Assembly (NCBI RefSeq): GCF_001720485.1
Contig: NZ_CP017114.1
Span: 4,030,001 to 4,094,000, forward strand
Direction of reading: 5' to 3'
Length of the DNA stretch: 64,000 nucleotides
From: Cobetia marina
Lineage (GTDB): Bacteria > Pseudomonadota > Gammaproteobacteria > Pseudomonadales > Halomonadaceae
Both the position numbers and the translations under genes were made by a program. Positions 32,741-60,813 of the stretch are shown in pieces. Position 1 is the stretch's first letter; the number at the start of each line of letters is the position of its first letter. Under the pieces are notes generated by a model. It had not been told where the DNA came from. It saw only the letters and a program-made list of their open reading frames with translations, and ran no database searches.

Positions 32741-33888
32741 GAGTCTTCCCTGCGTGATGCCGCCTCTCTGCTGCACGGCGCAATCGGAGCAGGCACCCGC
32801 CTGCCATGAGCGCGAGGGCACGATACCGGTGCCATCTCCTCCAGCATGGCAAATCTCATACCTGCCAGCGTGCACACGACTCAACGCTTGGCGATACGGC
32901 ACTCCTCAAATGTCACTCGCGCTGCCGGACACGGCATGTCCTCACTGCACCGCAACGGTATTATCAGCAATTCCAGCCACCCGTTTCATAATTTTCATTA
33001 CGCCACCAACCCCTAGAATTACTGGATACGTAAGGAAAATACCGACTGTGGATAACATTACATAACCCCCTCGACAGGGCATTTCCCAGCGCTCAAATAT
33101 CCATCATCTGGCAACGCCAAACCCTATCGATATGGACACCGAGCCGCACCACCTCATCGAAGCGTGACGCATTACACTCTGAATCAACATTTGAGGGCGA
33201 CATCAGCCCTCCTCCAGCACCCGGCCAGACCGGCGAAACAGGCGGCAGAGAGGCAATATCGTCACCCGGAACGGGCAAGGCACCCGCACGATGAACCAAC
33301 GGCAGCGTTTCCCGTCGACATCGCGGCATGAACTTCATGAAGAGCTTCACGAAGTAGTTCACGGAGATGTTCATGAAGAAGTGAATGGAGAAACGCCCTG
33401 GCATGACTCAGGAGGCTGGGCTCAAGAGAAGAGGCGCGAGGGAAGGGAGTGCCTTTCCCGAGAGTCACGCAGGCCCCACCCAATGCCAGCCTCCTTCGAT
33501 GCGCCGGACTGGCTGCCGTGTCTGTTCAGCTCGAGACATTCATGCGGACTGAACGTTGAAAATAGCCCATCAACCGGCTTTTTCCATGAAATAACGCGCG
33601 TTCTAGCAGATATTTCACGAAGTTGGCGACATGGAGCACCTGACGGATCGCCAGCCCTCGGGCCTGCACCAGAAGAGTGCTCATGGAACATGCAAGGCGG
33701 TGCTCCAGGCGCTACAGGAGTGCCTCAAGAGGGGGACTGCTGGTATATTTGATCGGTTGTCTCGGCCCTGCTGATACAACCGCCAAGCTGTCTCAAGGAG
33801 GCCACCCAAGGGTGGCAGAGAATCGTCCAACCCACGGAAAGGGCCAGCCATTCAGGACGACTTCGGCTTGTTTCAGGAGTAACACCCC
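32741..33888. other. 1.15 kb region without a supported gene
   Basis: The longest gap in the window. Possible frames on both strands (for example plus 33291-33752, minus 33093-33404) have no ribosome site, no recognisable family and odd composition. The region carries a 12-bp-periodic repeat (33327-33386), one isolated perfect DnaA-box match (TGTGGATAA, about 33047-33055) and, at the right end, the promoter area of the small membrane protein gene. It could hold a small RNA or a decayed gene, but nothing more can be supported. Confidence 0.4.
33327..33386 (+). repeat. 12-bp-periodic imperfect tandem repeat
   Basis: Five diverged 12-base units (CATGAACTTCAT, GAAGAGCTTCAC, GAAGTAGTTCAC, GGAGATGTTCAT, GAAGAAGTGAAT) in a row. 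Read on the plus strand in one frame they give HELH/EELH/EVVH-like repeats. No start with a ribosome site supports translation. Confidence 0.8.
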
Positions 33889-56214: not shown

Positions 56215-56526
56215 GAGTGCTCTCGCTGATCAGACCGGGCTGAACCCGGGATGTCCATGTGATATGCCAGTATAACCTGATGGGCCCTGTGACGCTGCCC
56301 ACCCGACACCGGCGTGACCACTCGTTTCAAGCTGTGCATTTTTCATGCTGACCGATTGGACATTTCAACCGGGGCCCGCACCAGCTGTGATATTCTTTGC
56401 CCCCCTGTTGACAGCACGCCCCGCTGTTTTTCTGGCATTTTCTAAAGGCGTGACACGCCAGCAGGACATGAAAAAGACCAAACGAACAGAAACGTCGGCA
56501 TGACCGGCGAGAGGGTTGATTCGACA
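56215..56526. other. Divergent promoter region of xseB and serA
   Basis: A 312-base non-coding stretch with the promoters of both units. I see no riboswitch or strong dyad. The serA ribosome site GAGAGGG is at its right end. Confidence 0.4.
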
Positions 56527-57777
56527 ATGGCCAAGACGTCCCTGGACAAGAGCAAGATCAAGATTCTATTGCTCGAGGGTGTCCACCAATCCGCCGTGGA
56601 TAACTTCCTCAACGCGGGTTACACCAACATCGAGCTGCTTCAGACCTCGCTCGCCGAGGACGAACTGATCGAGAAGATCCGTGATGTGCACTTCATCGGC
56701 ATCCGCTCCCGCACCCAGCTCAACGAGCGCGTGATCAGCGCTGCCGAGAAGCTCACCGCCATCGGCTGCTTCTGCATCGGCACCAATCAGGTCGATCTGG
56801 AAGCTGCACTCAAGCGCGGCATCCCGGTCTTCAATGCGCCCTACTCCAATACCCGCTCCGTCGCCGAGCTGGTACTGGCAGAAGCGATCATGCTGATGCG
56901 TGGCGTGCCGGAAAAGAGCGCCAAGGCGCACCGTGGCCAGTGGATGAAAACTGCCAAGAACAGCCATGAAGTCCGGGGCAAGACACTGGGCATCGTCGGC
57001 TACGGCAGCATCGGCTCGCAGCTGTCCGTACTGAGCGAATCTCTCGGTCTGGATGTCATCTACTATGATGCGGTCACCAAGCTGGGCATGGGCAATGCCC
57101 GCCAGGTGGCAAGCCTGGAAGAACTGCTGGCGCGCGCTGACATCGTCACCCTGCACGTCCCGGAAATCCCCTCCACCAAGTGGATGATGGGCAAGCAGCA
57201 GTTCGCGCTGATGAAGCAGAACAGTGTCTTCATCAACGCCGCTCGCGGTACCACCGTGGTGATTGAGGACCTCGCCGAAGCCCTCTCCAGCGGCAAGCTG
57301 CTGGGCGCGGCCATCGACGTCTTCCCGGTCGAACCGAAAGGCAATGGTGAAGAGTTCGTCTCCCCGCTTCGCGAGTTCGACAATGTCATTCTGACGCCGC
57401 ACGTGGGTGGTTCCACCATGGAAGCTCAGGAAAACATTGGCGTGGAAGTGGCGGAGAAGCTGGTGACCTACTCCGACAACGGCACCACCATCGGCTCCGT
57501 CAACTTCCCGGAGGTCGCGCTGCCGGCCCACCCGGAGAAGCACCGTCTGCTGCACATCCACGACAACGTGCCGGGCGTGATGTCTCACATCAACCGCGTA
57601 CTGTCCGAGGAAGGCATCAACATTTCCGGCCAGTACCTGCAGACCAACAATACCGTCGGTTATGTGGTCATCGATGTCGACAAGGCCTACGGCAAGAAGG
57701 CACTCGAGGCCCTCAAGACCGTCGACCATACGCTGCGCATTCGTACTCTCTACTCGGAAGCTGATTTCGAAGGGTGA
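56527..57777 (+). CDS. serA: D-3-phosphoglycerate dehydrogenase
   Basis: First step of serine synthesis, oxidising 3-phosphoglycerate with NAD. It has 416 residues from MAKTSLDKSKIKILLLEG. The NAD-binding fold has LGIVGYGSIGSQLSVLSE, the catalytic Arg region is FINAARGTTVVIEDL, and HVGGSTMEAQENIG contains the catalytic His. A C-terminal ACT domain (about residues 342-416, HIHDNVPGVMSHINRVLSEEGINI) gives serine feedback control, as in the E. coli type. A start at 56500 is possible but less like homologues. Confidence 0.97.
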   Translation: MAKTSLDKSKIKILLLEGVHQSAVDNFLNAGYTNIELLQTSLAEDELIEKIRDVHFIGIRSRTQLNERVISAAEKLTAIGCFCIGTNQVDLEAALKRGIPVFNAPYSNTRSVAELVLAEAIMLMRGVPEKSAKAHRGQWMKTAKNSHEVRGKTLGIVGYGSIGSQLSVLSESLGLDVIYYDAVTKLGMGNARQVASLEELLARADIVTLHVPEIPSTKWMMGKQQFALMKQNSVFINAARGTTVVIEDLAEALSSGKLLGAAIDVFPVEPKGNGEEFVSPLREFDNVILTPHVGGSTMEAQENIGVEVAEKLVTYSDNGTTIGSVNFPEVALPAHPEKHRLLHIHDNVPGVMSHINRVLSEEGINISGQYLQTNNTVGYVVIDVDKAYGKKALEALKTVDHTLRIRTLYSEADFEG

Positions 57778-57836: not shown

Positions 57837-57869
57837 AACGCCGCAGCCATCAGGCTGCGGCGTTTTTTT
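57837..57869 (+). terminator. Terminator of serA
   Basis: A perfect 12-bp stem (AACGCCGCAGCC and its complement) with a 4-base loop, ending in a T7 run. Confidence 0.92.
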
Positions 57870-57907
57870 CAATACGACTCGGAACAGAGAGGCGATGACG
57901 CACTGAC

Positions 57908-57923
57908 TGTTTCACGTGGAACA
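57908..57923. other. parS centromere site 1
   Basis: TGTTTCACGTGGAACA matches the conserved bacterial parS palindrome TGTTYCACGTGRAACA at all 16 positions. It is bound by ParB for chromosome segregation and sits in the gap after the serA terminator. Confidence 0.92.
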
Positions 57924-58014
57924 TCTTCGATTTTTTGGTAAAATCAAATATATTCAATCACTTGTATCACGACACGACGCTTGTGAACAGCAGTGACCAT
58001 CGCGCCCATTGCAC

Positions 58015-58200
58015 TCAGCGGTCTGACAATGGCGTACCCGCAACCGCCCAGTTTTCCGGCTCGACTTCCTGCAGTACGATCCATACCGACTCCTTGCGCA
58101 CCTCCAGTACGCGAGCTGTCTCACAGGTCAAGGCTTCGACCAGTTCCCGTTTCTGTGCCTCTGTCTTGCCACTGATGAATTCCGCACGAATCATGGGCAT
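58015..58200 (-). CDS. 4-oxalocrotonate tautomerase-like protein
   Basis: A 61-residue tautomerase monomer. After loss of Met the protein begins with Pro (MPMIRAEFISGK), the catalytic base of this superfamily, so the start at 58200 with AAGGAAG upstream is secure. The rest (KRELVEALTCETARVLEVRKESVWIVLQEVEPENWAV) has the usual beta-alpha-beta pattern and the conserved Trp near the C-terminus. Its substrate is unknown. It lies between parS sites 1 and 2. Confidence 0.88.
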   Translation of the reverse strand: MPMIRAEFISGKTEAQKRELVEALTCETARVLEVRKESVWIVLQEVEPENWAVAGTPLSDR

Positions 58201-58296
58201 GCTTTCGACTTCCTTATATGTTCCAACATTCTCTTTCCCAGCACTCGAGGCTCGCGCAACGACATGCTGGCCATGTGCCGTGATGCCGGGCATCGA

Positions 58297-58312
58297 TGTT
58301 CCACGTGAAACA
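58297..58312. other. parS centromere site 2
   Basis: TGTTCCACGTGAAACA, a perfect match to the parS consensus, upstream of the tautomerase gene. Flanking bases extend the palindrome to 20 positions (GA...TC). Confidence 0.93.
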
Positions 58313-58478
58313 TCTGCTGATCGTGGCGGACATGTTGCCCAGGTCGGCACTGGCTTCTCTGCGAAGCAACCAACAGCTCCCAAGCACCACAAGCCATGAA
58401 ATCACAGACTTATCAGCAAGTTGTAACCAGCCACCCGGAGACTGACCTCAAGAGACCGGCCTCCTGGTGAAGCATGGA

Positions 58479-58494
58479 TGTTCCACGTGAAACA
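58479..58494. other. parS centromere site 3
   Basis: TGTTCCACGTGAAACA, identical to site 2 and 182 bases from it, ending four bases before the pyrC' stop codon. It completes a cluster of three sites in 587 bases. Confidence 0.93.
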
Positions 58495-58498
58495 TCTT

Positions 58499-59764
58499 TC
58501 AAGCGTAGCGCGTATCGCCCAACAGCACGCGTTCGACACGCCCGGTCAACTGCATGCCGAGCAGTGGCGTATTATGTCCAGCACTTGCCAGCGTCTCGCT
58601 GGAGACACGCCATTTCTGCTCCATATCAATCACCGCGAGATCACAATACTCACCTTCCTTCAGCATGCCCCCCTTGAGCCCGAAGCGCCGGGCGCTGAAC
58701 GTCAGGGTCTCGATCAGGCGCGGCAGCTTGATCATCTCGGCCTTGACCAGCGCCAGCCCAAGCGGCAGCACGGTTTCCAGACTGGTCATGCCGGGCTCGG
58801 AGACCGCGAAAGGCGCACATTTCGCGGCCGCCTCATGTGGCAGGTGGTCACTGACGATCGCATCGATGGTGCCATCGGCGACAGCGGCACGAAGTGCCTC
58901 ACGATCGTCGGCACTGCGCAGAGGCGGCTGAAGATGGAAGTTGGCATCAAAGCCTTCCAGCTGCTCATCGGTCCAATGCAACTGGGCGATCGAGACATCC
59001 GCGGTGATATCCAGCCCTCGGGCCTTGGCATCACGCACCAGCTCCACCGCGCGAGCACTGGAAAGCAGCGAGACATGCGCCCTCACGCCGGTCTGCTCGA
59101 TCAGCAGCAGCCATTGGGTCAGCGCGATGGTCTCTGCCGATTCGGGAATTCCTGCCAATCCGAGGCGTGACGCGATGGCCCCCTCGTGCGCGCACCCCTG
59201 CCCCGCCAAGGTGGCTTCCTGTGCCTGGAAGACCACCGTGATATCGAAGGTGCGTGCATATTCCAGACAACGTCGCAGCACACCAAGATCACGGATCGGC
59301 CTGCGCAGGTTGGTCAAGGCGACACAACCGGCGGACTTGAGTGCGGCCATGTTGGCGAGCAGCTCCCCTTCCAGCCCCTGGGTCAGCGCTCCCAGGGGGG
59401 CCACCCTGACACCTGCCACATCGCGAGCGCGATCAAGCAGGGTGCGCACGTGAGAGGCACTGTCGAGCACCGGACTGGTATCCGGACGAGGCAGGATGAC
59501 GCTGTATCCCCCTGCCAGTGCCGCGGCCGATTCACTGGCCAGGCTGCCCTTGTAGCGCGGTCCGGGATCACGCAGATGGGCCCCCAGGTCAGCGAAGGCC
59601 GGCACGACAAGCTTGCCCGAGAGGTCCTGCTGCTCATCCGCGACGAAGCCACGCGGTGGCGCACCGATCGCGACCAGACGCCCCTCTTCGAGGTGCAGGT
59701 CATACTGGCCATCGCGGCCACTGGAGGGGTCGATGACCCGAGCATTGATGAGGCTGAGTTTCAT
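58499..59764 (-). CDS. pyrC': Dihydroorotase-like protein PyrC' (PyrX), probably non-catalytic
   Basis: A 421-residue amidohydrolase-fold protein of the dihydroorotase family. The metal motif, normally DxHxHxR, reads [10 protein letters not shown]: the first His is Gly61 while His63 and Arg65 remain. This matches the inactive PyrC' subunit known from Pseudomonas, which is needed for assembly of aspartate transcarbamoylase rather than for dihydroorotase activity. [13 protein letters not shown] (the late Asp-His region) is kept. It follows pyrB with a four-base overlap, which supports a stoichiometric complex. The active dihydroorotase must be elsewhere. Confidence 0.88.
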
Positions 59765-60813
59765 GCTCCAGCTCCTCGAGAACGTTCATTTCTGCGCTCA
59801 GCGCGCGCCTTCATCTGGCCTGATACCGCCATCGACAGCACCGCCATCCGGACGGCGATGCCATTGGTGACCTGATCGAGGATCAGCGAGCGCGGACCAT
59901 CCGCGACGGCGGACTCGATCTCGACACCTCGATTGATGGGTCCCGGATGCATCACTACCGCCTCAGGATGCGCGTGGGCGAGGCTTTCGCGGGTCAGGCC
60001 GTAGCGACGATAGTATTCCGACTCCGAGGGCAGCAGCGCGCCATCCATGCGCTCCTTCTGCAGACGCAACATGATGACGACATCGACATCCTTGAGCCCG
60101 GCTTCAAGCTCGGTGAACACCTGGCAGCCCAATGTCTCGACGCCCACGGGCAGCAGTGTCCTGGGGGCCACGACACGCACCTCGGCTGCCCCCAGGGTGT
60201 TGAGTGCCAGAATCTGCGAGCGCGCGACTCTCGAATGCAGGATGTCACCGACGATGGCGACGCGCAGGTTGGCAAAATCACCCTTGTGGCGACGAATGGT
60301 CAGCATGTCGAGCATCGCCTGGGTCGGGTGGGCATGACGCCCGTCACCGGCGTTGATGATCGCCACATGGGGCGTGATCTGGCTGGCGATAAAGTGCGCC
60401 GCGCCCGAGTCACCATGGCGCACCACGAAGGCATCCGCCTGCATGGCCTCGAGATTGACCAGCGTGTCCATCAGTGACTCGCCCTTGGCTGCGGAAGACG
60501 TCTTGATGTCCAGGTTGAGCACATCCGCCGACAGGCGCTTGGCGGCGAGCTCGAAGGTGGCCCGGGTACGCGTGGAGTTCTCGAAGAACAGATTGGCCAC
60601 CGTACGCCCCCGCAGCAGAGGCACCTTCTTGACCTCGGCATCACCGATGCCGCGGAAGTGATCCGCCGTGTCGAGAATCTCGGTCAGGACTGCACGCGGC
60701 AAGCCTTCGATATCCAGGAAGTGGCGCATACGCCCCTGCTCGTCAAGCTGGACCTGGGACGGGGAGGCCGCACGCACCTCTGCGCTGGCCTGGGTGAGAT
60801 CGAACAGGTTCAT
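59761..60813 (-). CDS. pyrB: Aspartate carbamoyltransferase catalytic subunit
   Basis: Makes carbamoyl aspartate, the committed step of pyrimidine synthesis. It has 350 residues. Motifs are the carbamoyl-phosphate loop [19 protein letters not shown], the [15 protein letters not shown] loop with the essential Lys, and HPGPINRG. The N-terminus is about 30 residues longer than E. coli PyrB, as in other ATCases that pair with PyrC'. It overlaps pyrR upstream and pyrC' downstream by four bases each (ATGA), so the three form one coupled operon. Confidence 0.96.

Follow-up and report, generated by a model that had tools for sequence, protein, structure and literature searches.

What are three perfect parS sites doing between serA and pyrC' in the chromosome of Cobetia marina, tens of kilobases from a second pair of sites at recF? 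The window analyzed here is a stretch of 64,000 nucleotides, positions 4030001–4094000 of a genome that consists of one contig of 4,176,400 bp. We hold it highly likely, with a probability of about 0.93, that the host's own ParABS system uses the three as chromosomal parS sites. The serA–pyrC' cluster very probably functions in ParB loading, because its sites stand out as conserved within diverged intergenic DNA across six Cobetia genomes.

All three sites are intergenic, read on the plus strand, and together span 587 bp of the serA–pyrC' interval. Site 1 (TGTTTCACGTGGAACA) is found at 57908–57923, and sites 2 and 3, both TGTTCCACGTGAAACA, are at 58297–58312 and 58479–58494. The initial annotation had reported three perfect matches here, and each indeed shows 0 mismatches to the consensus TGTTYCACGTGRAACA, a 16-bp palindrome. 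On one side lies serA (56500–57777, plus strand), an open reading frame for a D-3-phosphoglycerate dehydrogenase-like protein with the Pfam domains 2-Hacid_dh and 2-Hacid_dh_C and an ACT-type domain. It is followed by an intrinsic terminator that is not a parS site (57840–57870, plus strand), a GC hairpin with a T run whose stem is kept in six genomes. Site 1 falls between this terminator and the end of a gene encoding a 61-aa 4-oxalocrotonate tautomerase-like protein (58015–58200, minus strand; Pfam Tautomerase PF01361, E 2e-12, residues 2–61). The gene had been placed in the middle of the cluster, which is right in outline; it occupies the space between sites 1 and 2, with site 2 positioned 96 bp upstream of its start as chosen here. 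Site 3 is 4 bp past the stop of pyrC' (58499–59764, minus strand), an open reading frame for a dihydroorotase-like protein with the Pfam domain Amidohydro_1, in series with a pyrB open reading frame (59761–60813, minus strand).

The contig reads serA, terminator, parS, tautomerase (minus), parS, parS, pyrC'–pyrB–pyrR (minus), yqgE, gshB, secB, and gpmI, then ilvA, rpiA, waa-type genes, glyQ–glyS, gmhB, gyrB–recF–dnaN–dnaA, rnpA, yidC, and mnmE, and further on gidA, rsmG, parA, parB, and the atp operon. Most of these neighbor names were read from translations, with Pfam covering SerA, PyrC', the tautomerase, ParA, and ParB. The tautomerase is 82–84% identical at other Cobetia loci, and a scan of named genomes found PyrC' identities of 88% in Cobetia amphilecti N-80, 86% in Cobetia crustatorum JO1, and 37% in one distant match.

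Across the whole chromosome, the motif is rare and tightly confined. The 4.18 Mb contain five perfect sites, at 4087908, 4088297, 4088479, 4134348, and 4134978, all within 47.1 kb (4087908–4134993). One further site at 4122708 has one mismatch, and none are added at two mismatches; the control motif (reversed, uncomplemented) has three matches at two mismatches or fewer. Within the window, four matches occur at three mismatches or fewer, the fourth being at 33869 with three mismatches from TGTTYCACGTGRAACA. Shuffled sequence gives a mean of 0.41 (n = 100), with at least four matches in 1 of 100 shuffles. The second group comprises two sites 630 bp apart near dnaA, one in recF and one at the recF–gyrB overlap. 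The window cluster is 46 kb from this pair, ~48 kb from dnaA, 84 kb (2% of the chromosome) from the skew minimum, and 86 kb from parB. Mapping the 16-mer against GC skew, as the initial annotation had advised, places the perfect sites 37–85 kb from the skew minimum, within the origin-proximal fifth of the chromosome. This bears out the expectation that they lie near the replication origin. A chromosome with many equal clusters spread evenly, the picture that would undo the centromeric reading, is excluded, as perfect sites are found at two places only, both near the origin.

The position of the origin itself merits some attention. The cumulative GC-skew minimum is at 4172385, inside gidA, within the 158 kb examined. 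Sampled 5-kb stretches show positive skew in 9 of 10 cases up to 2.0 Mb and negative skew in 9 of 10 from 2.2 Mb on, so that 18 of 20 have the expected sign. In Cobetia, ~34 kb separates the minimum from dnaA. In two relatives, G027 and G017, the minimum of the 75–80 kb examined is in gidA or rsmG and not at dnaA, at distances of ~18 and 24 kb from the latter. All three minima suggest that the origin lies next to gidA and not at dnaA. Candidate groups of DnaA boxes occur upstream of both genes, with two perfect boxes and up to six with one mismatch or fewer per 500 bp upstream of dnaA, and no perfect box, up to five with one mismatch or fewer per 500 bp, and an AT-rich stretch upstream of gidA. 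In Cobetia, oriC is probably at gidA. The stretches that bear on this question, 4169704–4171043 and 4138376–4139362, are both outside the window.

The machinery that would use these sites is encoded in the same genome. The genes parA (4173753–4174577; Pfam AAA_31) and parB (4174596–4175561; Pfam ParB_N, HTH_ParB, and ParB_C; TIGR00180 over cut-off) are absent from the window, as had been noted, and lie 85–86 kb away. Among solved structures, the best relatives of the ParB protein are chains of ParB, Spo0J, and Noc; the GERR stretch is aligned. One of 12 SMC matches is above cut-off, at 1045 bits, and a MukB search that did find the E. coli control gave no match in this genome.

Conservation within Cobetia is part of the evidence for the parS reading. 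The cluster and the tautomerase gene are present in 6/6 Cobetia genomes, including the window's own, and 17 of the 18 cluster sites are perfect. Sites 1 and 3, each with 16/16 alignment columns invariant, are more strictly conserved than site 2, which is perfect in five genomes (in G002 with a consensus-compatible change) and has one mismatch in G004. In the serA–pyrC' interval, 46/48 parS columns are invariant across the six genomes versus 58/490 other noncoding columns (Fisher p 7e-35, with columns treated as independent, which they strictly are not). Invariant noncoding runs of at least eight columns are limited to the three parS sites (17, 16, and 10) and both serA terminator arms (8 each). 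The recF pair is likewise kept in 6/6 Cobetia genomes. The stretch from glyS to gyrB holds no parS match in the window's genome even at three mismatches or fewer, and no site at one mismatch or fewer is listed around glyS–gmhB–gyrB in the other five.

A palindrome can also be the stem of a terminator. This was considered for the window sites and rejected, as their fold z-scores (−0.70, 0.17, and 0.12) are about those of shuffles versus −5.10 for the serA terminator (57840–57885, −21 kcal/mol). The one-mismatch site at 4122708 (TGTTTCATGTGAAACA) is a different case. It carries the identical mismatch in 6/6 Cobetia genomes and was a candidate for a sixth, weakened parS, but it contributes to the stem of a strong hairpin of terminator type (fold z −10.8) between two convergent predicted genes. 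Its conservation is thus explained without ParB, and it was therefore not counted.

Related arrangements are found in another genus of the family. In G034 (L161:1228) and G048 (L166:1477), a perfect parS is itself the stem of a terminator-like hairpin, which has 13 further paired bases outside the 16-mer, ends in A/T runs, and adjoins a homologue of c4121464 (fold z −6.87 for L161). Both genomes have a second parS alongside with eight more paired bases and no T run. G011 (L171), from the same genus, has a one-mismatch version, and the Cobetia hairpin site at 4122708 is in the corresponding gap. Among 195 distinct 96-base parS contexts, with related genomes counted apart and sites near locus ends dropped, 10 have at least five further perfectly paired bases, where ~0.2 would be expected if each further base paired with a chance of one in four, as we estimate. 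Terminator palindromes may give rise to new parS sites, or parS sites to terminator palindromes.

How widely is the serA–pyrC' location shared? Among the 77 genomes from the family and order, 70 have a perfect parS site, as do 38 of the 43 family genomes outside Cobetia. With each site labeled by the nearest matched gene within 1.6 kb, the 156 perfect sites of these 38 genomes are found at recF in 29, around glyS–gmhB–gyrB in 30 (a class that includes the rearranged genomes G011, G034, and G048 and also G021, with a single site 335 bp from gmhB), and at serA–pyrC' in none. G019, G022, G026, and G039 have a perfect parS at none of recF, glyS–gmhB–gyrB, serA, or pyrC'. Beyond the family, 26 genomes of the order have a perfect site, and a recF parS was present in 7/7 loci examined. 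A cluster common to the family at serA–pyrC' was therefore rejected: the nearest matched gene within 1.6 kb on either side was serA, pyrC', or the tautomerase at 0/156 sites, in a mapping where some sites have no matched neighbor and a small protein like the tautomerase could escape matching.

Searches for the flanking genes agree. A pyrC' search covering 28 of 48 family relatives matched 12 at the threshold used, seven of them outside Cobetia, and the 1.5-kb flanks of these seven loci contain no serA and no parS at two mismatches or fewer. The junction and the cluster thus appear specific to Cobetia in this sample. A serA search covering 16 of the 48 relatives matched all 16; in G017, serA is separated from pyrC' by ~38 kb and from recF by 84 kb.

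The glyS–gmhB–gyrB sites of other genera resemble the Cobetia cluster, with an identical 16-mer, short intergenic groups, and proximity to recF. They differ in distance: in the 25 genomes that have both, ~2.5–3.4 kb separates the nearest such site from its closest recF site, while Cobetia has no sites there. Other arrangements exist. Single parS sites in G019, G039, and G021 are scattered over ~215, 218, and 82 kb and are not clustered. Five family genomes (G007, G030, G045, G028, and G046) have kept ParB with no perfect parS; in the recF sites of the first four and the one-contig group of G046, one or both outermost bases are changed, as in GGTTTCACGTGGAACA and CGTTTCACGTGAAACA. Only recF or grouped sites are meant here, as the control motif also matches at two mismatches in these genomes.

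ParB is described as loading at parS as a CTP clamp that slides, is acted on by ParA, and in several species recruits SMC (PMC7022226). Taking the observed sites, genes, positions, and conservation together with the known family, ParB binding, clamp sliding, ParA traction, and SMC loading would all be expected at the Cobetia cluster. Produced 86 kb away, next to gidA and the presumed origin, ParB would be loaded on each 16-mer as a CTP clamp and slide into the flanks toward serA, the tautomerase gene, and the pyr operon. The cluster would seed one of two ParB domains, with the other at recF–gyrB, and ParA would use both to move the newly copied origin region while ParB would load SMC–ScpAB at them. 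The ParB domain of Pseudomonas aeruginosa is put at over 30 kb in one account (PMC10419367) and at 50 kb in another (PMC7022226), and a domain of tens of kilobases would by analogy cover serA, the tautomerase gene, and the pyr operon. The tautomerase gene is thus likely to be inside a ParB-covered domain, and ParB repression of its promoter next to site 2 is a possible side effect, comparable to parS3 and parS4 of P. aeruginosa. From the distribution across genera, the cluster would stand in for the glyS–gmhB–gyrB sites of related genera. Our tentative proposal, which we rate below even odds, is that the secondary centromere moved in Cobetia. The glyS–gmhB–gyrB sites would have been lost and a three-site cluster would have arisen 46 kb away at serA–pyrC', leaving a two-part centromere whose parts are kept tens of kilobases apart by selection.

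Other readings concern the weight and the purpose of the cluster. The initial annotation saw here the likely main centromere of the chromosome, which would make the recF pair minor. That refines the ParABS reading without excluding it. The number of sites speaks for it, as three of the five perfect sites are here within 587 bp, and so does the retention of the cluster in 6/6 Cobetia genomes. The recF pair is equally well retained, however, and is nearer both dnaA and the skew minimum (37 versus 84 kb). Its location is also more widely shared (29/38 other family genomes and 7/7 other-family loci examined), and a single one of the four sites of P. aeruginosa is reported to suffice (PMC7022226). 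The cluster leads in the count of sites and the recF pair in position and distribution, and primacy of the cluster seems to us possible but somewhat doubtful. Because of the 46-kb gap, the serA–pyrC' and recF locations may each carry a ParB domain of its own, and these may differ in weight.

It is improbable that the sites are mainly ParB operators silencing the tautomerase gene with segregation secondary. Site 2 is just upstream of the tautomerase start, and P. aeruginosa ParB is reported to repress PA0011 and PA0013 via the intergenic parS3 and parS4 (PMC5521831). But sites 1 and 3 are beyond gene ends and are the more strictly conserved, and in Bacillus subtilis the loss of Spo0J is reported to have left the genes adjoining its parS unaffected (PMC7022226). 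The idea that the sites are palindromes arisen by chance, or belong to a repeat bearing CACGTG, deserves almost no credence; the simple palindromic form of the motif is all that favors it. The reversed control has no match at one mismatch or fewer, the flanks of the three sites are mutually unlike by eye, and the conservation of the sites amid diverged flanks in our view refutes such an origin. The sites are best read as parS serving the host's ParABS system.

Little is known of how bacterial centromeres come to change position, and the question of how a centromere region expands has been raised (PMC5815017). Cobetia and its relatives offer a natural series: the recF sites mostly keep their place, and the second group is found at glyS–gmhB–gyrB, at serA–pyrC', or scattered over up to 218 kb (G039). 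This series allows one to ask what purpose a second ParB loading zone serves and how far from the first it may be. In the open-licence literature, nothing was found on a serA–pyrC' parS locus; by title, none of the matches listed concerned chromosomal parS in Halomonas, and those for Cobetia ParB were polymer work only.

The cluster is ordinary in kind. In Caulobacter, an added parS cluster is described as having a permissive zone centered on the native cluster, with insertions near the terminus found as well (PMC5815017), and the second Cobetia cluster, less than 50 kb from the first, fits such a zone. The closest parallel is parS1 of Vibrio cholerae chromosome I, where three natural sites are reported ~65 kb from oriC1 (PMC4091711); the three Cobetia sites are 84 kb from the skew minimum, or ~48 kb from dnaA. 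Unlike V. cholerae parS1, Cobetia has a second group, the two sites at recF. In this it is like P. aeruginosa, in which recF contains parS1 and parS2, and the sites parS3 and parS4 lie between genes (PMC5521831), as Cobetia also combines a recF pair with intergenic sites. The intergenic sites of P. aeruginosa are upstream of PA0011 and PA0013 and form one cluster with parS1 and parS2, whereas those of Cobetia are 46 kb from recF, between serA and pyrC'. What is less ordinary about the Cobetia cluster is its place, which is lineage-specific.
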